NCBI RefSeq assembly: GCF_024055665.1
Contig: NZ_JAMXMC010000002.1
Coordinates: forward strand, 372,001 to 436,000
Direction of reading: 5' to 3'
Origin: Ideonella oryzae
GTDB lineage: Bacteria; Pseudomonadota; Gammaproteobacteria; Burkholderiales; Burkholderiaceae_C
Length of the DNA stretch: 64,000 nucleotides
Part shown: positions 31,053 through 43,978 of the stretch, piece by piece
Numbering within the stretch: the first letter of the stretch is position 1
Layout of the letters: each line of letters starts with the position of its first letter
The notes under the pieces: generated by a model
What the model was told of the DNA's origin: nothing
Database searches by the model: none
What the model saw: the letters and a program-made list of their open reading frames with translations, nothing else
Made by a program: the position numbers and the translations under genes

Positions 31053-32801
31053 TCAGAAGGCCGCCCACTCCTCGCTTGGCGCGTTGGCAGCCGAGTTGGC
31101 CGAGGGCGCGCTCTGGCCGTGGGCGGCTCCGCTTGCCGCGGGCGCGGTCTGGGCGGGCCGGCGCTTGACTGCACTGCGGGCCGCTGCGGCCGGTGTGGCG
31201 CGGGGGCTGTGCGTGGCGGGCGCCGAAGAGGTCACCGCCAGCTGGTGATGGCCCACCAGCTTGAAGACGGAGACCGCCTGCACCAGTTGCTGGGCTTGGT
31301 GCTTCATGCTTTCGGCCGCGGCAGCGCTCTGTTCCACCAGGGCGGCATTTTGCTGCGTCACCTGGTCCATCTGGCCGACGGCGTTGACCACCTGCACGAC
31401 GCCGTCACTCTGTTCGGTCGAGGCGGAGCTGATCTCGCCCACGATGTCGCTGACCTGCTTGATGGAGCGGACGATCTCGTCCATGGTCTTGCCGGCCTGG
31501 TCAACCAGGGCCGCGCCCTGATCCACCTGTTCGACGTTGCTGGTGATCAGGCGCTTGATCTCCCGGGCGGCTTCGGCGCTGCGCTGGGCCAGCGTGCGGA
31601 CCTCGCCGGCCACGACGGCAAAACCGCGCCCCTGTTCCCCGGCACGCGCGGCTTCCACCGCGGCATTCAGGGCCAGGATGTTGGTCTGGAACGCGATGCC
31701 GTCGATCACGCCGATGATGTCGCCGATCTTGCGGCTGCTGCCGCTGATGCCCTGCATGGTGGTGACCACCTGTTCGACGATCGCACCGCCCTGGGTGGCG
31801 ACGGTGGAAGCCCCCTGGGCCAGTTGGTTGGCCTGGTGGGCGCTGTCGGCGTTGGTGCGCACGGTGGAGCCGAGCTGGTGCATGGTGGCCGCCGTCTGCT
31901 GCAGCGCGCCGGCCTGTTCCTCGGTGCGTTGGCTGAGGTCCTGGTTGCCCTGGGCGATCTCCGCGCTGGCCGTGGCCACGCTCTCGGCACTGCCGCGGAC
32001 CTGGGCCACCACCTCCGTCAGCGAGGCCTGCATGGCGGCCAGCGTGGCCAGCAGCGGGCTGAACTCGTCCACCGCGGTGTCTTCGACGGTCGTGGAGAAG
32101 TCACCCTGCTTGACGCGGTCGGCCACGATCTGGGCCTGGGCCACGCGCCGGCGCAGCGAGCGGGCGACCATCCAGGACATGGCCACCAGGCCCGCGGCAA
32201 CGGCCGCGACCAGCAGCGTCAGCTGGAGCCGAACCTCCTCGACATTGGTGCCGATGGTCGCCACGTCCTGACCCAGCACCTGGGTCTGGCGGCTGCGCTC
32301 TTCGCTGAGCCATTTCTGGATCTTGGCGAACTGCGGAACCGTGGTCTGGGCCAGCATCGTCAGGGCTTCGTCATGCTTGCCCGACCGGATCAGATCCAGG
32401 TTCTTTTCTGCCACGGGCCAGGAGACCTGCTGCAGGTCCAGCCAGTCGCGCTTGAAGGCGTCACGGCCCGCCTGGTCCTGGATCTCGGCCAGGAAGTCGT
32501 CGTCGTTCTTGGTGATCTCCTGTCGCCGGGCCTGCAGGGCCTTGGCGGCCTGCTCCATCTCCTGCGGGGTGCCCGCCAGCATGGCCTGTCGGATGTCCGA
32601 CAGTGCCTGCGAAATCTTCAGTTCGGTGCTGGCGATCAGGCTCAGCTGAAGCACCTTGATGTCACCGGTGCGGTGGGCCAGTTCGCGGACTTCGCGCAGT
32701 TGGATCCAGGTGCTGGCCGTGACGGCCATGAGGGCAACGATGAGTGCGAACGACACCGCGTAGAGGCGCTGGCTGAGGCTGATTCTCTTGAACAAAGACA
32801 T
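31053..32801 (-). CDS. Methyl-accepting chemotaxis protein
   Basis: Inner-membrane chemoreceptor (582 residues). TM1 is at about 13-31, followed by a four-helix-bundle-like periplasmic sensor (32-190), TM2 at about 195-215, a HAMP domain to about 270 and a cytoplasmic coiled coil. The hairpin tip is [37 protein letters not shown]-like (read in parts), the universal CheA/CheW contact. The last residues are EEWAAF, fitting the xWxxF pentapeptide that tethers CheR/CheB. The ligand is unknown. The start at 32801 ([10 protein letters not shown]) lies about 145 nt downstream of a sigma-28-type promoter, so the gene is probably expressed with the flagellar regulon. Confidence 0.93.
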
Positions 32802-33181
32802 GATGCTCCTTAACGGGAGAAGGGAAATCTGACTGACCTCGGCGGTGGCGGGCAGGCCTGCGCTGGGTCGGCCCCCGGGGCAACGACCGTGTCTCCTGAG
32901 CGCACTGCTTGATTTCGCCGGTGACCTGAGGGGGATGCTCCTCTTCTTATCGGCTGAGGATCCTCTGTATTGAGGATTTCGCGTAGGTCTTTTCTGACAT
33001 TCGAGTGGCCGGGGGTTTGCCATGGAACGCTTAGGTCACCGGGAAAGCGCCCCCCGGCGCCGATGTGGCCAGCCTTCTACGATGGGCCGCCGCCTGCTGG
33101 GCGCGGTCCGTGGCCTGCGCCACCACCTTGCGCCACCAACCCGGTCAGGCGGGCACCTGCATCCACTCAGAAAGACTTGCC
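32802..33181. other. Divergent intergenic region, chemoreceptor / PHB depolymerase (380 bp)
   Basis: Apart from the sigma-28-like promoter (32947-32973) and a self-complementary GAGGATCCTC inside its spacer, there is no credible gene. A GGTCACC and a GC-rich CGCCCCCCGGCGCCG stretch occur near 33033-33062. No clear housekeeping promoter for the depolymerase gene was identified. Confidence 0.5.
32947..32973 (-). promoter_or_regulatory. Sigma-28 (FliA) type promoter for the chemoreceptor
   Basis: Read on the minus strand the sequence is TCAA, then 15 nt, then GCCGATAA. The -10 is an exact match to the FliA consensus and the -35 has one mismatch to TAAA, with exactly the consensus spacing. It lies 146 bp upstream of the start codon of the methyl-accepting chemotaxis gene. 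Confidence 0.75.
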
Positions 33182-34699
33182 ATGACAACCTTTGCCCGCC
33201 TCCGGGCGCGGGGCGTGGCGGTGCTGTTGGCCGCGCTCACCCTTGCCTGTGCATCCACGTCCGCCACTGCCGCCGTGGCCTTGCCTCAGCTCCACATCGA
33301 CACCGGCCAGATCACCGTGTCCGGCCTGTCCTCGGGCGGCTTCATGGCCAATCAGCTGGGCTATGCCTATTCGGGCACCTTCAAGGGTGTGGGGGTGTTC
33401 GCGGGCGGGCCGTACATGTGCGCGGGCCACAGCAACTACACCGCCTGCATGTACAACGCCAGCATCTCCAGCAGCATGCTCAGCACCCTGCAGGCGGACC
33501 TGAACAACTGGAGCGGCACCGCCATCGACCCCCTGGCCAACGTGGCCGGGCAGAAAGTGTTCATGTTTGTGGGCACCAGCGACACCACGGTGGGCCCCAA
33601 GCCCATGAACGCGGTGCAGACCCAGTACACCAGCAACGGGGTGCCCGCCGCCAACCTGAGCTATGTGCAGCGCAGCGGCACGGCGCATGTGTTCCCCACC
33701 GACTTTGCCGCCACCGGCAACAACAGCTGCGGCACCAGCGCCTCGCCCTACATCGCCAACTGCGGCTACGACGGCGCCAAGGCGGTGCTGAGCCAGTTCT
33801 ACGGCACGCTCAACGCCCGCAACGACGCGCCGGCCGCGGCCAACTACATCGAGTTCGACCAGACGCCCTTCACCGCGGGCAACCCCGGCATGGCCGCCAC
33901 CGGCTGGCTCTATGTGCCGGCCAACTGCGCCAGCGGGGCGGTGTGCCGCCTGCATGTGGCCCTGCATGGCTGCCAGCAGAATGTCGCCACGATTGGCGAC
34001 AAGTTCCTGAAGAACACCGGCTACACCCGCTGGGCCGACACCAACAGCATCGTCGTGCTCTTCCCGCAGACGAAGGTGGACAACACCAGCCGCAGCACCG
34101 CCGCCAGCGGCTCGCTGGCCAACCCCAACGGCTGCTGGGACTGGGTGGGCTGGTACGGCGGCAACTTCGCCCAGCGCACCGGCGCGCAGGCGCAGGCCAT
34201 CAAGGCCATGGTGGACCAGGTGGCCTCCGGCTCGGGTGGTGGGGGGGGAGGAGGCGCCCTGCCTGCGCCCACCGGGCTGGTGGCTTCGGGCGCCACCGAC
34301 ACCACCATGACCCTCGGCTGGAACGCGGTCAGCGGCGCGGTGGGCTACCACGTGTTCCGCAACGGCGTGCAGGTGGACACCTCGGCCGTCACCGGCACCA
34401 GCTACGTGGACAGCGGCCTGTCGCCCGCCACCCCCTACAGCTGGACCGTGGCCGCCCTGGACAGCGGCGGCACGCAGGGCGCGCTCTCGGCCGCGGTCAG
34501 CGCCACCACCACCGGGGCCGCCGCCACCTGCTTCACCGCCAGCAACTACGCCCACACCACGGCCGGCCGGGCCCACCAGAGCGGCGGCTACACCTACGCC
34601 AACGGCTCCAACCAGGCCATGGGCCTGTGGAACGTGTTCGTCACCACCACGCTGAAGCAGACGGGGGCCAACTACTACGTGATTGGCAGCTGTCCCTGA
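33182..34699 (+). CDS. Extracellular PHB depolymerase, type II catalytic domain, Fn3 linker and substrate-binding domain
   Basis: Secreted enzyme (505 residues) that hydrolyses extracellular poly(3-hydroxybutyrate). A signal peptide of about 30 residues is followed by the catalytic domain with the lipase box GLSSG (Ser50) near its N-terminus, Asp134 (GTSDTTV), His169 (GTAHVFP) and the oxyanion-hole segment LHGCQQN (His262) C-terminal to the triad. That order is typical of type II depolymerases. A glycine linker (351-358), a fibronectin-III-like domain (about 362-443) and a C-terminal substrate-binding domain (about 450-505, with two Cys) follow. The start at 33182 begins the signal peptide. 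Confidence 0.9.
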   Translation: MTTFARLRARGVAVLLAALTLACASTSATAAVALPQLHIDTGQITVSGLSSGGFMANQLGYAYSGTFKGVGVFAGGPYMCAGHSNYTACMYNASISSSMLSTLQADLNNWSGTAIDPLANVAGQKVFMFVGTSDTTVGPKPMNAVQTQYTSNGVPAANLSYVQRSGTAHVFPTDFAATGNNSCGTSASPYIANCGYDGAKAVLSQFYGTLNARNDAPAAANYIEFDQTPFTAGNPGMAATGWLYVPANCASGAVCRLHVALHGCQQNVATIGDKFLKNTGYTRWADTNSIVVLFPQTKVDNTSRSTAASGSLANPNGCWDWVGWYGGNFAQRTGAQAQAIKAMVDQVASGSGGGGGGGALPAPTGLVASGATDTTMTLGWNAVSGAVGYHVFRNGVQVDTSAVTGTSYVDSGLSPATPYSWTVAALDSGGTQGALSAAVSATTTGAAATCFTASNYAHTTAGRAHQSGGYTYANGSNQAMGLWNVFVTTTLKQTGANYYVIGSCP

Positions 34700-34709
34700 G
34701 GGCCTGTGC

Positions 34710-34738
34710 GGGGCGCGGGCTCTTCTACACTGCGCCCC
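34710..34738. other. Inverted repeat with embedded -10-like TACACT
   Basis: GGGGCGC (34710-34716) and GCGCCCC (34732-34738) flank 15 nt that include TACACT (34726-34731). The right arm ends directly before the ATG of the truncated ORF at 34739. It could be the terminator of the depolymerase gene, the promoter of a leaderless downstream gene, or both. Confidence 0.4.
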
Positions 34739-34837
34739 ATGATCTGCTTGGCCCCAGTGACCCACCAGGACCACGAGAAACTGCTGCAGTTTGAGCAGGA
34801 GAACTTGGCCGTCGGCTCCTGGGGCTGCGTCGGCTGA
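34739..34837 (+). pseudogene. Truncated ORF resembling a GNAT acetyltransferase N-terminus
   Basis: A 32-codon ORF whose first residues, MICLAPVTHQDHEKLLQFEQ, resemble the start of RimI/RimJ-like GNAT acetyltransferases (x-L-R-P-V-x-x-x-D-x-x-x-L-L-x-F-E). After about residue 23 the resemblance ends and the frame stops at 34837. Immediately downstream, base composition falls and a foreign-looking gene begins. The simplest reading is a resident gene whose 3' part was deleted or displaced when the 34.84-38.46 kb block arrived. The family assignment rests on about 20 residues and is tentative. Confidence 0.4.
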
Positions 34838-34844
34838 AAGCCCC
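34821..34844. other. Inverted repeat at the left junction of the low-GC block
   Basis: GGGGCT and AGCCCC flank 12 nt spanning the stop codon of the truncated ORF. It lies exactly where the composition changes. It may be a terminator remnant or a junction feature; no matching repeat was found at the right end near 38456. Confidence 0.25.
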
Positions 34845-34916
34845 GGCGCGCCTCACCAATCCGGTCTCGGTGTGGTGGCTACAGCGCTGCGATTCCGTAC
34901 AGTTTGGACACTCACT

Positions 34917-34940
34917 CACGAGCATGAAATTTCACTCGTG
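34917..34940. promoter_or_regulatory. Compound palindrome upstream of the orphan 1154-residue gene
   Basis: CACGAG (34917-34922) and CTCGTG (34935-34940) are exact reverse complements and enclose the perfect palindrome TGAAATTTCA (34925-34934). The site is 51-74 bp upstream of the GTG start, so it may be an operator or a hairpin controlling this gene. No regulator gene is adjacent. Confidence 0.4.
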
Positions 34941-34990
34941 CGCAGGGTTGCTGCCACTTCCCGACCAGCAGGTGAGAGCAAGAATAGACC

Positions 34991-37900
34991 GTGAGCAATA
35001 CGATGAATCGAATTCCAAGCCTGCACTACTCATTGTTCCAGGCGCGAGCCGTGCTAAGCGCAAGATTCGCTGCATTGCCTTCGATGCCCCGTCCTCACCT
35101 GGGTTTGATGTCTGCCGAACAGGAGACGCCCAGAGACGGGGATCTGCTTGAGCTTTTGCTGAATACGACTTCGAGCAGAAACGATGACGAAGCGACTGCG
35201 CGGCAGGAGTACATGCGCATTCGCTTGGAGGTGGGAGCCGAGCTGCCGGACTTCGACCAAGCGCTGGCGAGGGGATGGTTTCGGCTCATCCAGGGACGGG
35301 TAGTTCCTGCCGTTGCGTTGAGCGACTATTACCTTCGGCACGATGTGCCGTATGCAGAGGCGCTACGGTCTTTTGTCTACTGGCTTAGCGACGTGAAATA
35401 TCAAATCGCGCAGCCAGGCGCACATGTCAGTGCAAGTACCTTTGAAGACTACCTCGTCGCTGGAGCCGAATCGGGGCACAAGCCGCCCGTCCAGACGCCG
35501 ACCTGGATTGCGGCGCGACTTTGGGATGACCAGCCACCAGTCGATCTCGCAACGTGGGCCATGCGCTGGGAAGTGCTCGATTTGGTCCCCCTGATTCCTT
35601 CTGCCGTTTGGTCCGAGCAGGATGCACAGCGGTTCAGGGAGGCTTCACTTCAAGCCCTACGCAATGCCAATCTCCCCACATGGGACCACGTGTCCGTTGC
35701 CGAAAGCCTGCGGGCCTCCGGGGACATGCAAGAGCTGGTACCTATCGAAGTGAAGCCTGATCTGCTGGGACGCGTCCTCGCTCGTACGCGCGCTCACTAC
35801 GGGACCGACCTCTATGAGGCGCATGCGCTCTGCGCACTCATGAGAGTACTGGTGCTTGAGCTGGCGCATGTCGAGGCTGGACCGGTCCCTTCCAAGATGA
35901 CTCAGGAACTGGTCGCGCTGGCGACGTGCCATCCTGAACTTTGCGACGTGCTGATTGACTGCTGCCTACAAGCGCCGCAGGTCCTTGCCGACCTCATTTT
36001 CTGTCCGCCTGCAGCGGGTCTGGTCTGCCACCTGGTCGCTACATGGCATGTGCAGTTCCAGATCGACCGGGACTATCGCAATGAGGCTGCCGACTCGGTG
36101 CAAGCGTCATTGTTGGCGGACTGCCTGGAGGTTCTCCGGTATCACTTTGTTCAGGGCGACGTAGCTCCGGCTGAATCCGCGCGCTTGCTGATCGTGATGC
36201 AGGAGCACGATTGCGGGGGGAGTGATGGCGTGCCTTTGCTACCCATTGGCCTAGACCACCTGCGTGGACTGCCCGTGGATATCAAGCGGCAAGTTCGCCA
36301 GTCACTTATAGAAATGGCAAGCGCCCAGGCCACCTCCCTGGAGTTTGCGGTCATGCTGAAGGCCGTTGCCGTGGTGGGTGAGTCGTTGCCTCCTGCAGAA
36401 GCGGAGACCGTGGCTTCTGCTTATCGAAAGGCATTCCATGCAAAGGAACGGGCCGATACACGATGGGTAGACGTTACGGGCGCGGCCGCGCTGGCCCGAC
36501 TGGCAATGGATCACGGCCACCTCCAACCCAGGATCTTCTATCCCCTCGACTTGCAGGCCGAACTGGCTCGTCGACCGGACGATGTCGTGGGTCTGGGTTT
36601 GTCCATGCGTGAGCAGATACGAATGCTGAGCCGTGCGGTGGTGGGCTACCCCGAAAGCGTACCTGGCGACCTCGTCGAAGCATTGGCTTTGGCGATCCAG
36701 GCTGGGGCGAGTAATCGCCCGGACAGGGGCCGGGTCGACGCCTTCACATTCCAGCTGGACAACCAGGTCCGAGGTCGGCAAGGGCCGCGTCTGGAGTCAG
36801 ATTTGATCGAGGCCGTGAACAGGCTGGAGGTCCCTGCTCAACAAGAGCGCCTCGTAAAGGCGCTCCTGCTGGTCGAGGATCCTCTGATACTGGCCATGTT
36901 GCTGCCCCGTGTGCCGGCGGTGTACCGAGAGCGCATTGTTGCCCGGTTGCGGGTATTGACACCCGACGAAGCTAGCCGTGCAGCGTTCGTCACACAAGCG
37001 TCGGAGCGCGGGCAAGCGCTTCTGGATGCAGGGCTTCCTGAGCTTGCCAGTGCATATCTGCGAGAGGCCCAAGAAGCGCAACGTGGAAGAAATCTTCCCG
37101 CGTTGGCCGTGCAGACCCTGAATCAGCAATTGCAGATCCACTACCTGAGCGGCACGTTTGATGCGGTTGCATCAGCCAAGATTCCAGACGGTCTGCGGCC
37201 GGAACACCAGGCCGAGGCGCAGAGAACACTGGATTTCTTCCGCGCGTTGGTGTGCCTCAAGAACGAGCCACCCGAAGCCTTGAAAGCTGCAGGGATTTTT
37301 CACAGCCTGTATCGGCAGCACCCGTTGCCTGCATACGCGATCAACCTGCTCGCCGCACGTGTGGTCAAGCTCCTCGGGGAGAACCTGTTTCGTGTCGTGG
37401 TCGGGGAGGATGCTGAGATGGCCCGCCTCGCAATTGATGAGGCTGACCGGGCCATTCCTTCTATCAAGGGACTCAGCGACATGTCCCGCGCCATCCATGT
37501 GCCAAATTGCGCAGCCATGCTGCTGGCCGTTGGGCGCCCCAGGGAGGCCATGAATCGCCTCAAGGAACTTGCGTCTGTGGAGCGCACCGCCGAGAGCACG
37601 GCATTCGAGGCGGTGGCCAGCGCGAGGCTTGGCGAGCCGGATCGTGCCCGTGCGTTGATTCGGTCAGGCAGGGAGCGCTACGGCGACGCATCGCTGCTCG
37701 TCGGGGCCGAGAGCCACATCGATCATTCGGCCGGCTTTGGCGCGCCTCCCCTCGTGCTTTTCAAACAGGAGGCGGCGGTCCAGTTGCGCGCAGCCATGCG
37801 TTCATTCATGGAGCTCCCCGCTTCGGAGCAGGCAGAAGTTCTGATGGGGCCACCCTTGGCATTGGAGAAGCTGCTGACGGCAGCCTTTCAGGACGCGCTC

Positions 37901-38455
37901 GCCGCTTTTCAGCGAACGCTGTCATTCCTCAAGCTCGACAGGCATACGGAATTCGATGAAGACGACTTCAATGGCATCGTCGCCGAGTTGGTCGAGGCGC
38001 GACTCGAAGGAAGTTTGGGTTGGCAGGCGCACGAGCAGTCACCGGGCGGCTACACGGAGAAGGGCAATGCCGGAAGGCGTGACTTCGTGGTCCGTCGCCG
38101 AGGCGTAGACATCACCGTTTTCGAGGCGCTGAAAGCATCGCAGCCTAACGACAAGCGGATTTCTGCACATCTCCACAAGCTCCTTGGCTACTCTTGGGCC
38201 GACATCCTCTTCCATGTCACCTACAGCAATCGCAAGGACGTCTCAGAGATGCGCACTGCAGTCGAAGAGGTGGCAAGGCGTCCACCTCCGGGCACAACGT
38301 ATCAATGCCAATCGGCGATACCCGCCGACGGGGCAAGGCCCGGCGCTGTCAGGGGAAGCTATCGCAGGAATGGAGACGATGTCACAGTCATCTTCTTTGT
38401 GATCGACATGCGAGAGGATGGTTTGCGAGCTGCGGTGGGGGCGCCAGCTTTGTAG
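34991..38455 (+). CDS. Large orphan protein, helical repeats plus nuclease-like C-terminal domain (putative defence factor)
   Basis: A 1154-residue protein I do not recognise as a named family. Residues about 60-980 look all-alpha with repeated helix pairs; about 838-905 (LLAVGRPREAMNRLKEL and following) look TPR-like. No P-loop, signal peptide or membrane segment is seen. The C-terminal domain (about 990-1110) has a D at 1031 (GRRDFVV) and E1045-A-L-K1048 in VDITVFEALK, then HLHKLLGY, a layout reminiscent of PD-(D/E)XK-type nuclease modules at the ends of bacterial defence proteins. GC content and codon use are clearly lower than in neighbours. Start GTG 34991 or ATG 35003 (MNRIPSLHYS). It is convergent with hmgL, 13 bp apart. 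Function is inferred only. Confidence 0.8.
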   Translation: MSNTMNRIPSLHYSLFQARAVLSARFAALPSMPRPHLGLMSAEQETPRDGDLLELLLNTTSSRNDDEATARQEYMRIRLEVGAELPDFDQALARGWFRLIQGRVVPAVALSDYYLRHDVPYAEALRSFVYWLSDVKYQIAQPGAHVSASTFEDYLVAGAESGHKPPVQTPTWIAARLWDDQPPVDLATWAMRWEVLDLVPLIPSAVWSEQDAQRFREASLQALRNANLPTWDHVSVAESLRASGDMQELVPIEVKPDLLGRVLARTRAHYGTDLYEAHALCALMRVLVLELAHVEAGPVPSKMTQELVALATCHPELCDVLIDCCLQAPQVLADLIFCPPAAGLVCHLVATWHVQFQIDRDYRNEAADSVQASLLADCLEVLRYHFVQGDVAPAESARLLIVMQEHDCGGSDGVPLLPIGLDHLRGLPVDIKRQVRQSLIEMASAQATSLEFAVMLKAVAVVGESLPPAEAETVASAYRKAFHAKERADTRWVDVTGAAALARLAMDHGHLQPRIFYPLDLQAELARRPDDVVGLGLSMREQIRMLSRAVVGYPESVPGDLVEALALAIQAGASNRPDRGRVDAFTFQLDNQVRGRQGPRLESDLIEAVNRLEVPAQQERLVKALLLVEDPLILAMLLPRVPAVYRERIVARLRVLTPDEASRAAFVTQASERGQALLDAGLPELASAYLREAQEAQRGRNLPALAVQTLNQQLQIHYLSGTFDAVASAKIPDGLRPEHQAEAQRTLDFFRALVCLKNEPPEALKAAGIFHSLYRQHPLPAYAINLLAARVVKLLGENLFRVVVGEDAEMARLAIDEADRAIPSIKGLSDMSRAIHVPNCAAMLLAVGRPREAMNRLKELASVERTAESTAFEAVASARLGEPDRARALIRSGRERYGDASLLVGAESHIDHSAGFGAPPLVLFKQEAAVQLRAAMRSFMELPASEQAEVLMGPPLALEKLLTAAFQDALAAFQRTLSFLKLDRHTEFDEDDFNGIVAELVEARLEGSLGWQAHEQSPGGYTEKGNAGRRDFVVRRRGVDITVFEALKASQPNDKRISAHLHKLLGYSWADILFHVTYSNRKDVSEMRTAVEEVARRPPPGTTYQCQSAIPADGARPGAVRGSYRRNGDDVTVIFFVIDMREDGLRAAVGAPAL

Positions 38456-38468
38456 CGCGTGCGAGCCT

Positions 38469-39410
38469 TCAGGCGCCCCGCTTGGCCAGCAGCGCCCGCG
38501 CCGTGCGCGAGCCGTTGACCTGGCCCAGCGCCTCGCGGATGAACGCGCCAGCGTCGATCAACGCGTCCAGGTCGATGCCGGTGTCGATGCCCAGGCCGTG
38601 CAGCAGGTAGACCACGTCCTCGGTGGCCACGTTGCCGGTGGCGCCCTTGGCGTAGGGGCAGCCGCCCAGGCCGGAGACGCTGGCATCGAAGGTGTGGATG
38701 CCCAGCTCCAGACTGGCGTAGACGTTGGCCAGGGCCATGCCGTAGGTGTCGTGGAAATGGCCGCTCACCTCCGCCAGCGGGAAGTGGCGCAGCGCGGCTT
38801 CCAGCGCGCGCTGCACCTGGCGCGGGGTGCCCACGCCGATGGTGTCGGCCACGCCCACGTGCTGCACGCCGATGCCGGCCATCAGCCGGGCCACCAGTTC
38901 CACCCGCTCGGGGGCGATGGCGCCCTCATAGGGGCAGCCCACCGCGCAGGAGATGGCGCCGCGCACCTTGACGCCCACGGCGCGGGCGGCTGCCACCACT
39001 GGCGCGAAGCGCTCGATGGATTCGGCGATGGAGCAGTTGATGTTCTTCTGGCTGAAGGCCTCGCTGGCGGCGCCGAAGACGACGATCTCGTCCGGCCGCG
39101 TGGCAGCGGCTGCTTCCCAGCCCTTCAGGTTGGGCGTCAGCACCGAGTAGCGCGCGCCGGCCTGGCGCTGCACGCCGGCCATCACCTCGGCGTTGTCGGC
39201 CATCTGCGGCACCCACTTCGGGCTGACGAAGCTGGTGACCTCGATCTCGCGCAGGCCGGCGGACTGCAGGCGGTGGACGAGCTCAATCTTGGTGGCGGCC
39301 GGGACGGTCTGCTTTTCGTTCTGCAGGCCGTCGCGCGGGCCCACCTCGACCAGGGTGACGCGGGCGGGGAGATGGGCGGTGGAAACAGCGGTCGTGCTCA
39401 TGGGCTTCAT
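38469..39410 (-). CDS. mvaB: Hydroxymethylglutaryl-CoA lyase
   Basis: Last step of leucine degradation: splits HMG-CoA into acetoacetate and acetyl-CoA. The 313 residues form a TIM barrel with the entry VTLVEVGPRDGLQNEKQ (metal and substrate residues R and D), EVTSFVSPKWVPQMAD, SGHFHDTYGMALAN (metal-binding HxH) and GLGGCPYAKGATGNVATED, the signature with the catalytic Cys. The start at 39410 overlaps the mccA stop by 4 bp (ATGA), which implies translational coupling; the alternative ATG at 39401 would lose it. It is last in the liu operon. Confidence 0.95.
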   Translation of the reverse strand: MKPMSTTAVSTAHLPARVTLVEVGPRDGLQNEKQTVPAATKIELVHRLQSAGLREIEVTSFVSPKWVPQMADNAEVMAGVQRQAGARYSVLTPNLKGWEAAAATRPDEIVVFGAASEAFSQKNINCSIAESIERFAPVVAAARAVGVKVRGAISCAVGCPYEGAIAPERVELVARLMAGIGVQHVGVADTIGVGTPRQVQRALEAALRHFPLAEVSGHFHDTYGMALANVYASLELGIHTFDASVSGLGGCPYAKGATGNVATEDVVYLLHGLGIDTGIDLDALIDAGAFIREALGQVNGSRTARALLAKRGA

Positions 39411-42347: not shown

Positions 42348-43978
42348 TCACATCCTGAAGACGCCGAACTTGGCGTCCGGGATCGGTGCGTTGAGACTGG
42401 CCGACAGGCCCAGGGCCAGCACGCGGCGGGTGTCGACGGGGTTGATGATGCCGTCGTCCCACAGGCGGGCGCTGGCGTAGTAAGGGTGGCCCTGCACCTC
42501 GTACTGCTGGCGGATCGGGGCCTTGAAGGCCTCTTCCTGCTCGGCGCTCCACTGGCCGCCCTTGGCCTCAATGCCGTCGCGCTTGACGGTGGCCAGCACG
42601 CTGGCGGCCTGCTCGCCACCCATCACGCTGATGCGGGCGTTGGGCCACATCCAGAGGAAGCGCGGGGAATAGGCGCGGCCGCACATGCCGTAGTTGCCGG
42701 CGCCGAAACTGCCGCCGATGATGACGGTGAACTTGGGCACGTTGGCGCAGGCCACGGCCGTGACCATCTTGGCGCCGGCCCGGGCAATGCCCTCGTTCTC
42801 GTACTTGCGGCCGACCATGAAGCCGGTGATGTTCTGCAGGAAGACCAGCGGGATCTTGCGCTGGCAGCACAGCTCGATGAAGTGGGCGCCCTTGTTGGCG
42901 CTTTCGGCGAACAGGATGCCGTTGTTGGCCACGATGCCCACCGGCGTGCCCTCGATGTGGGCGAAGCCGCAGACCAGGGTGTTGCCGTAGCGGGCCTTGA
43001 ACTCGTCGAACTCGCTGCCGTCGACGATGCGGGCGATGATCTCGCGCACGTCGAAGGGCTTGCGGGTGTCGGTGGGGATGACGGCCAGCAGTTCCTCCGC
43101 CGGGTAGAGCGGGGCCTGCGGCGTGCGCAGGGCCAGCGGGGCGGGCTTTTGCCAGTTCAGGTGGCCCACCGCCTGGCGGGCCAGGGCCAGGGCGTGCAGG
43201 TCGCTCTCGGCCAGGTGGTCGGCCACGCCGGACAGGCGGGTGTGCACGTCGCCGCCGCCCAGGTCCTCGGCGCTCACCACCTCGCCGGTGGCGGCCTTCA
43301 CCAGCGGCGGGCCGCCCAGGAAGATGGTGCCCTGGTTCTTGACGATGATGGTCTCGTCGCTCATGGCCGGCACGTAGGCGCCGCCGGCGGTGCAGGAGCC
43401 CATCACCACGGCGATCTGCGGGATGCCTTCGCCGCTCATCGTGGCCTGGTTGTAGAAGATGCGGCCGAAGTGGTCGCGGTCGGGGAAGACCTCGTCCTGG
43501 TTGGGCAGGTTGGCGCCGCCGGAATCGACCAGGTAGATGCAGGGCAGGCGGTTCTCGCGGGCCACCTCCTGCGCGCGCAGGTGCTTCTTGACGGTCAGCG
43601 GGTAGTAGGTGCCGCCCTTGACGGTGGCGTCGTTGCAGACGATGACGCACTCCACACCCGCCACCCGGCCGATGCCGGCGATCATGCCGGCGGCCGGAGC
43701 GCTGTCCACCATCTCGCCGTTGGCGTCGGCCTCGCGGTAGACGCCGTGCGCGGCCATCGGCGCGATCTCCAGGAAGGGCGTGTCCGGGTCCAGCAGCATC
43801 TCCACCCGCTCGCGTGGCAGCAGCTTGCCGCGGGCCAGGTGCTTGGCACGGGCGGCCTCGCCGCCGCCCTGGGCGATGCGGGCCAGGCGGGTGTTGAGGT
43901 CGTCCACCAGCGCGCGCATGGCCAGGGCGTTGGCCCGGGCTTCCTCGCTGCGGGGGTTGAGCTGCGTCTTCAGCGTGG

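Follow-up and report, generated by a model that had tools for sequence, protein, structure and literature searches.

A low-GC single-gene cargo of Ideonella oryzae, probably an antivirus protein, ends in a nuclease-like module present on other defence-type architectures

What is a single long gene of atypical composition doing between two conserved genes of Ideonella oryzae? The question is raised by a stretch of 64,000 nucleotides (contig NZ_JAMXMC010000002.1, forward-strand positions 372,001 to 436,000; the whole stretch is hereafter the window), where one open reading frame (ORF) of 1154 codons is the only long ORF of its interval. A first-pass annotation, made from the letters alone, had read it as a stand-alone defence protein with helical repeats as sensor and a nuclease as effector. 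This reading was partly supported: the cargo character of the block, the neighbours of its homologues, the lack of a nucleoside triphosphatase (NTPase) and the nuclease-like module stood, and the part assigned to lysine K1048 fell. The gene is probably a single-gene system against mobile elements, most likely phages, carried as exchangeable cargo and joining a helical, TPR-like sensor to a PD-(D/E)XK-like nuclease effector. The gene is rare and undescribed, and it is considered a probable one-gene antivirus system because its nuclease-like tail is also found on quite different defence-type proteins. The features needed first are the following.

34705..38465, no strand: variable interval, outside which three congeneric genomes are homologous (up to 34701-34704 and again from 38466-38469)
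34991..38455, + strand: stand-alone large protein, 1154 aa, GTG start (in-frame ATG at 35003 possible)
37943..38410, + strand: C-terminal nuclease-like module, residues ~985-1140, common to several architectures

The C-terminal ~165 residues constitute a transferable module that also ends unrelated proteins, and a family surfaced only when the C-terminus was searched alone and then through alignment; with the whole protein as query, plasmids, phages, viral contigs and genome contigs (first scan) returned no match. The C-terminal 194 residues found one relative among 399 order-level genomes (E = 1.0e-23) and one among 398 phylum-level genomes (E = 6.1e-23), and a scan with A1, an alignment of three sequences, yielded five loci, of which two lay on contigs already known. 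The five relatives, with 22-28% identity to the focal protein, were as follows.

L060/L063: Dechloromonas hortensis
L061/L066: Pseudomonas sp. EpS/L25
L062: Pseudomonas sp. BP8
L064: Rhodanobacter metagenome-assembled genome (MAG), 909 aa, without the C-terminal module
L065: Polyangiaceae MAG

The Rhodanobacter copy (L064 9047-11776) ends at 909 aa through either a natural truncation or an assembly break. The in-frame ATG at 35003 may be the true start of the focal ORF, because it is aligned with the MGRFKS... start of L065. Since only a few candidates were scored in each genome searched (two in the family- and class-level scans, up to eight in the order- and phylum-level scans), absence in them is not proof. 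Short matches in the family-level (three) and class-level (four) scans (E from 4e-4 to 0.009), as well as those of 28 of the 30 order-level and 18 of the 20 phylum-level genomes that had a match (E = 0.004-0.1), were attributed to chance or generic TPR similarity; hit H1, which overlies ORFs of other kinds, was rejected, and matches to TREX1 (E = 0.27) and SUV3_C (E = 0.09) were dismissed.

The wider distribution of the module was revealed by tblastn with the L062 homologue. It ends a Roco protein (LRR, Roc, COR-A and COR-B) on a plasmid of Photobacterium toruni, the gene of which (L067 5697-8435) lies between TniB and TniQ of a type I-F CRISPR Tn7 element, and it is present in ORF333 (P0003, 333 aa) of prophage P2-EC5 (GenBank AM157364). 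ORF333 lies directly downstream of the AAA_15 ATPase ORF555, which matches PADLOC NsnB at 1.1e-49; NsnB is presumably the Menshen ATPase, a name for which a literature look-up gave no confirmation. The two ORFs (L068 243-2913) resemble a two-gene defence pair; a search of 5426 complete E. coli genomes, at the sensitivity of megablast, found them in four. The variable locus of P2-like prophages is described, in passages of PMC9122126, as a hotspot of antiphage genes, and the pair presumably sits in that hotspot; no test of the pair was found in those passages or in titles on P2-EC5. Searches with ORF333 led to a Vibrio plasmid protein that adjoins an AAA ATPase and carries the module at its end, to a second module-ending Roco protein on pSLIN03 of Spirosoma linguale, and to a 1269-aa protein (P0005) on pBPJTT of Burkholderia pyrrocinia, 83 bp downstream of an OLD-like ATPase-TOPRIM gene; a reverse-transcriptase gene lies near these last two genes (L069 2542-8543). 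Viral-contig scans with alignments A1 and A3 gave no match, and the scan with ORF333 gave only a near-identical copy. Among 13 genomes of the genus of G1474, the module profile A4 was found only in G1474 itself.

The conserved residues were assessed in A4, a ten-row alignment of the module in which the other nine sequences are 21-34% identical to the focal one and the row of L065 is cut short.

37958..37960, + strand: E990, conserved acidic residue at the module start (five of five rows of A3; nine of nine covering rows of A4)
38081..38083, + strand: D1031, candidate metal ligand (ten of ten rows)
38123..38125, + strand: E1045, candidate metal ligand (ten of ten rows)
38132..38134, + strand: K1048, variable (K/I/V/V/V/R/R/C/I/R in the ten rows)
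38168..38179, + strand: H1060..K1063, basic pair after E1045 (each in ten of ten rows)

Residues Q1016, G1020, G1025, G1028, D1031, E1045, H1060, K1063 and Y1067 were invariant in all ten rows. The first-pass annotation had built a site from D1031, E1045 and K1048; all three are at the positions it gave, and the acidic pair is conserved, while K1048 varies and the basic positions that are invariant are H1060 and K1063. The acidic pair D...(D/E) of PD-(D/E)XK nucleases is thus present, and the residue order (acid, D, E, then H..K) resembles that of the superfamily. ORF333 matched PADLOC CARF_PDDEXK (E = 0.0042) and Pfam PDDEXK_4 (E = 0.08), both below cut-off. In hhalign comparisons with members of these two families (templates from four of seven and two of four loci, namely, those with a full ORF including the nuclease part, one of the seven being a second view of a used locus), the best alignment to each family places D1031 and E1045 on the catalytic D and E. 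Scores as high were reached by 4 and 2 of 200 column-shuffled templates, respectively; when 93 overlapping segments from the helical part of the same family served as decoys, four reached the first score and none the second, and reversed templates scored 10.0 and 14.8.

Several results weigh against a nuclease effector. The canonical (D/E)xK lysine is missing: position 1047, two residues after E1045 and a lysine in the classical PD-(D/E)XK motif, is L, A or F in all ten rows and never K. No family of Pfam, PADLOC, NCBIfam or PHROGs rose above threshold for the focal protein; the nine other module proteins have no nuclease-family match in Pfam, and P0003 alone among the seven module proteins scanned matches one in PADLOC. 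The hhalign values themselves were E = 0.093 and 0.058 (probability <1%). A match of the C-terminus to PD-(D/E)XK profiles, which the first-pass annotation had proposed to look for, is limited to these comparisons and to P0003. In addition, the PADLOC-DB 2.0.0 system models matched none of the six family members at E up to 10, and a PDB sequence and profile search with the module produced no convincing solved structure. A PD-(D/E)XK-like fold is weakly supported, and membership of the superfamily is not claimed because the lysine was looked for and not found. A separate PDDEXK_4 nuclease protein of 433 aa is encoded elsewhere in the same genome (G000:C28:2753-3166, L155).

The same absent lysine, together with the lack of a significant profile match for the focal sequence and the unconvincing PDB search, favours the best surviving alternative, namely, a defence protein whose module does not cut DNA, being either a different enzyme or an altered PD-(D/E)XK relative (an RNase, a binding domain or a signalling platform). 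This alternative is rather unlikely: D, E, H and K are strictly invariant over distant hosts and architectures, and both hhalign tests align the module best when its acidic pair meets the D and E of PD-(D/E)XK.

The long N-terminal part, which the first-pass annotation had described as helical repeats, gave modest support to that description.

37616..37693, + strand: TPR-like stretch, residues 876-901, sub-threshold (TPR_14 E = 0.42, 11.9 bits versus a cut-off of 23.5)

The helical periodicity of the family profile in residues 1-330, 330-660, 660-930 and 930-985 was reached by 6, 12, 35 and 5 of 300 shuffles, respectively, and the helix/strand ratio of the same segments by 20, 21, 44 and 3; the periodicity thus exceeds shuffles modestly, and since that of the C-terminal module was itself reached by 24 of 300, the measure discriminates poorly. 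TPR_14 was found below threshold in five of the six family members (E up to 10, best E = 0.09). No NTPase family was matched in the focal protein, in agreement with the first-pass annotation, or in the five relatives at E up to 10.

If the protein is indeed a helical sensor joined to a nuclease, its N-terminal ~960 residues would fold into an alpha-helical, partly TPR-like solenoid, the sensor of either a component of the phage or incoming nucleic acid, and the C-terminal module would be a PD-(D/E)XK-like metal-dependent nuclease, as the motif layout and the weak profile matches suggest. Conservation points to a putative active site of E990, D1031 and E1045, in which H1060 and K1063 may take the basic role of the usual (D/E)xK lysine; on activation, phage and/or host nucleic acid would be degraded.

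Comparison with known systems places the focal protein beside several of them. In ORF333 of P2-EC5, the invariant D, E, H and K of the C-terminal module are laid out as in the focal protein, but ORF333 is only 333 aa long, has no long helical N-terminus and probably works with a separate ATPase. The Roco proteins of Photobacterium and Spirosoma likewise end in the module, preceded by a large sensor-type region of LRR and GTPase parts, whereas the helical part of the focal protein is free of NTPases. P0005 is similar in size, in its C-terminal module and in having no NTPase over cut-off; however, pairwise BLASTP revealed no convincing similarity outside the module, and it may act with the OLD gene upstream. 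The CARF-PDDEXK effectors, which we take to be of the Can2/Card1 type, show weak profile similarity to the module with D and E in register but differ in their classical ECK-type motif, the lysine of which the module lacks, and in sensing a ligand through a CARF domain. Avs/STAND defence proteins combine a large repeat-rich sensor and a terminal nuclease-like effector with a STAND NTPase; the focal protein shares the sensor-plus-effector idea, but no such NTPase was detected in it.

The neighbourhoods of the relatives bear on whether the cargo serves defence. Defence-type genes (TerB, SIR2, DUF4011-restriction endonuclease (REase), and MORC-type with CD-NTase) lie within 3 kb of four of the five, which bears on the defence-island check that the first-pass annotation had proposed for homologues. 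It counts against the defence reading that this sample of five has no background rate, that the focal gene itself has no recognised defence gene next to it, and that the neighbours of L065 are, by eye, mobile-element-like only. The integrase assignments at L061 and L065 were also made by eye, and for a Tn7-like identity of the operon beside the L062 homologue, sequence comparison gave only a weak TniB match (E = 8e-4, six-protein comparison) and no PDB match. A 1103-aa protein with N-terminal membrane-like segments (L060 5995-9306) lies 30 bp from the Dechloromonas family member; it has no Pfam family over cut-off and, by eye, does not occur beside the other relatives.

A second alternative is that the cargo is unrelated to defence, namely, a regulatory or scaffold protein of the TPR type whose transfer between strains has some other cause. 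The absence of a recognised defence gene beside the focal gene agrees with it, as do the ordinary-looking ORFs in the corresponding intervals of two related genomes (G001 and G008, see below). Nevertheless, the homologues near SIR2, TerB, DUF4011-REase, MORC-type and CD-NTase genes, as well as the presence of the module in a prophage gene pair and in a CRISPR-Tn7 element, make it improbable.

The block was defined by its flanks, of which the following features are relevant.

33065..34699, + strand: left flank, intact depolymerase-like gene (named by eye; start uncertain), 92.6-94.4% identity in three relatives
34740..34837, + strand: scrap of ~33 codons, acetyltransferase-like by eye only
38469..39400, - strand: right flank, hydroxymethylglutaryl-CoA lyase-like gene (named by eye; start approximate), matched across the genus

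The site is variable and the block one of its exchangeable cargoes, because close relatives with conserved flanks hold unrelated contents there. In genomes G013, G001 and G008, each of the two flank queries has a match of 94-96% nucleotide identity. When a longer stretch was compared, identity next to the interval was 92.6-94.7%, and a single G013 piece farther to the left had 85.7%. Their intervals (about 5.1, 2.9 and 4.7 kb, respectively) have no blastn match (E up to 1e-3) to that of the window, and most of the G001 interval is common to G001 and G008. The description as compact cargo between housekeeping genes is thereby borne out, and in the proposed check of related strains the focal protein was found in none of the 15 other genus genomes searched, two of which are <90% complete. 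The G013 interval holds a LeoA-like dynamin gene (PDB 4aur, E = 1.6e-63) and a second GTPase-like gene (L132 4663-6528 and 2522-4816), a candidate defence pair; another bacterial dynamin, DynA, has been tied to phage resistance (PMC8844932). The 4.7-kb interval of G008 (L134) contains a second copy of a 42-bp piece of the lyase gene (100% in the local match), perhaps a scar of exchange. In the more distant genus members G009, G015 and G003, an ABC-transporter-like gene directly follows the depolymerase (by eye). No DNA repeat around the interval was defensible as a transposon end.

The left neighbour, which the first-pass annotation had called truncated, is intact and about 93-94% conserved in three relatives (93.7-94.4% over 33160-34704 in two of them and 92.6% over 31495-34704 in the third), and the truncated gene was probably the 34740..34837 scrap. 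In tblastn against 14 relative regions, this scrap gave chance matches only (E >=5); by eye, a similar short string (HFEQEKRTFF) occupies the same place in two relatives, and for this reason the decayed gene start may be old. On the right, the convergent gene does end at 38469, 13 bp from the focal stop codon, as annotated; the lyase-like gene has a strong match (80-96% identity, E <1e-200) in 14 of the 15 other genus genomes, the exception being G009. The low-GC, single-gene character was likewise confirmed: the GC content of the focal ORF (0.606) and its value at third codon positions (GC3, 0.670) lie below those of all 36 usable window ORFs (0.641-0.753 and 0.727-0.965, respectively), a contrast somewhat flattered because these ORFs (>=200 aa) were chosen by length and high GC3. 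Two of the 38 comparison rows were left out, one with a broken edge coordinate and one read on the wrong strand (42568-43650). The plain GC profile shows the same contrast (0.58-0.64 within the block, mostly 0.65-0.76 in the flanks). Vertical inheritance of a resident gene lost in the relatives has nothing positive in its favour and is highly improbable, given the atypical composition, the failure to find the protein in those 15 genomes or in the 398 further genomes of the family sample (where three short, weak matches were put down to chance), and the scatter of relatives over Dechloromonas, Pseudomonas (two), Rhodanobacter and Polyangiaceae.

A broader reading of the module is offered only tentatively, as somewhat less likely to hold than to fail: it may be an undescribed transferable immune effector with its own layout, E...D...E...H..K, joined to no fewer than three unrelated kinds of sensor (Roco GTPases, ATPase partners of the AAA_15/OLD type, and helical proteins free of NTPases), the last of which would be one-gene systems without a nucleotide switch. 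A survey of NTP-dependent conflict systems mentions COR domains as well as effectors of the REase kind, one clade of which had been unreported (PMC7159879); identity of that clade with the module is not evident in the passages concerned. In a machine-learning study, 13 of 31 further validated defence systems are reported to contain PD-(D/E)XK domains (PMC13092281), so that even a new module would act in a familiar manner. The significance of the family would lie in a defence-associated effector domain that has no family of its own in the libraries searched and occurs on several different architectures. An NTPase switch is typical of big bacterial immune proteins, and the focal protein would be a large single-gene form without one. 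Roco GTPases are relatives of the Parkinson's protein LRRK2, and to our knowledge the natural role of the bacterial members is poorly known; for the C-termini of some of them, the module would offer a testable function.

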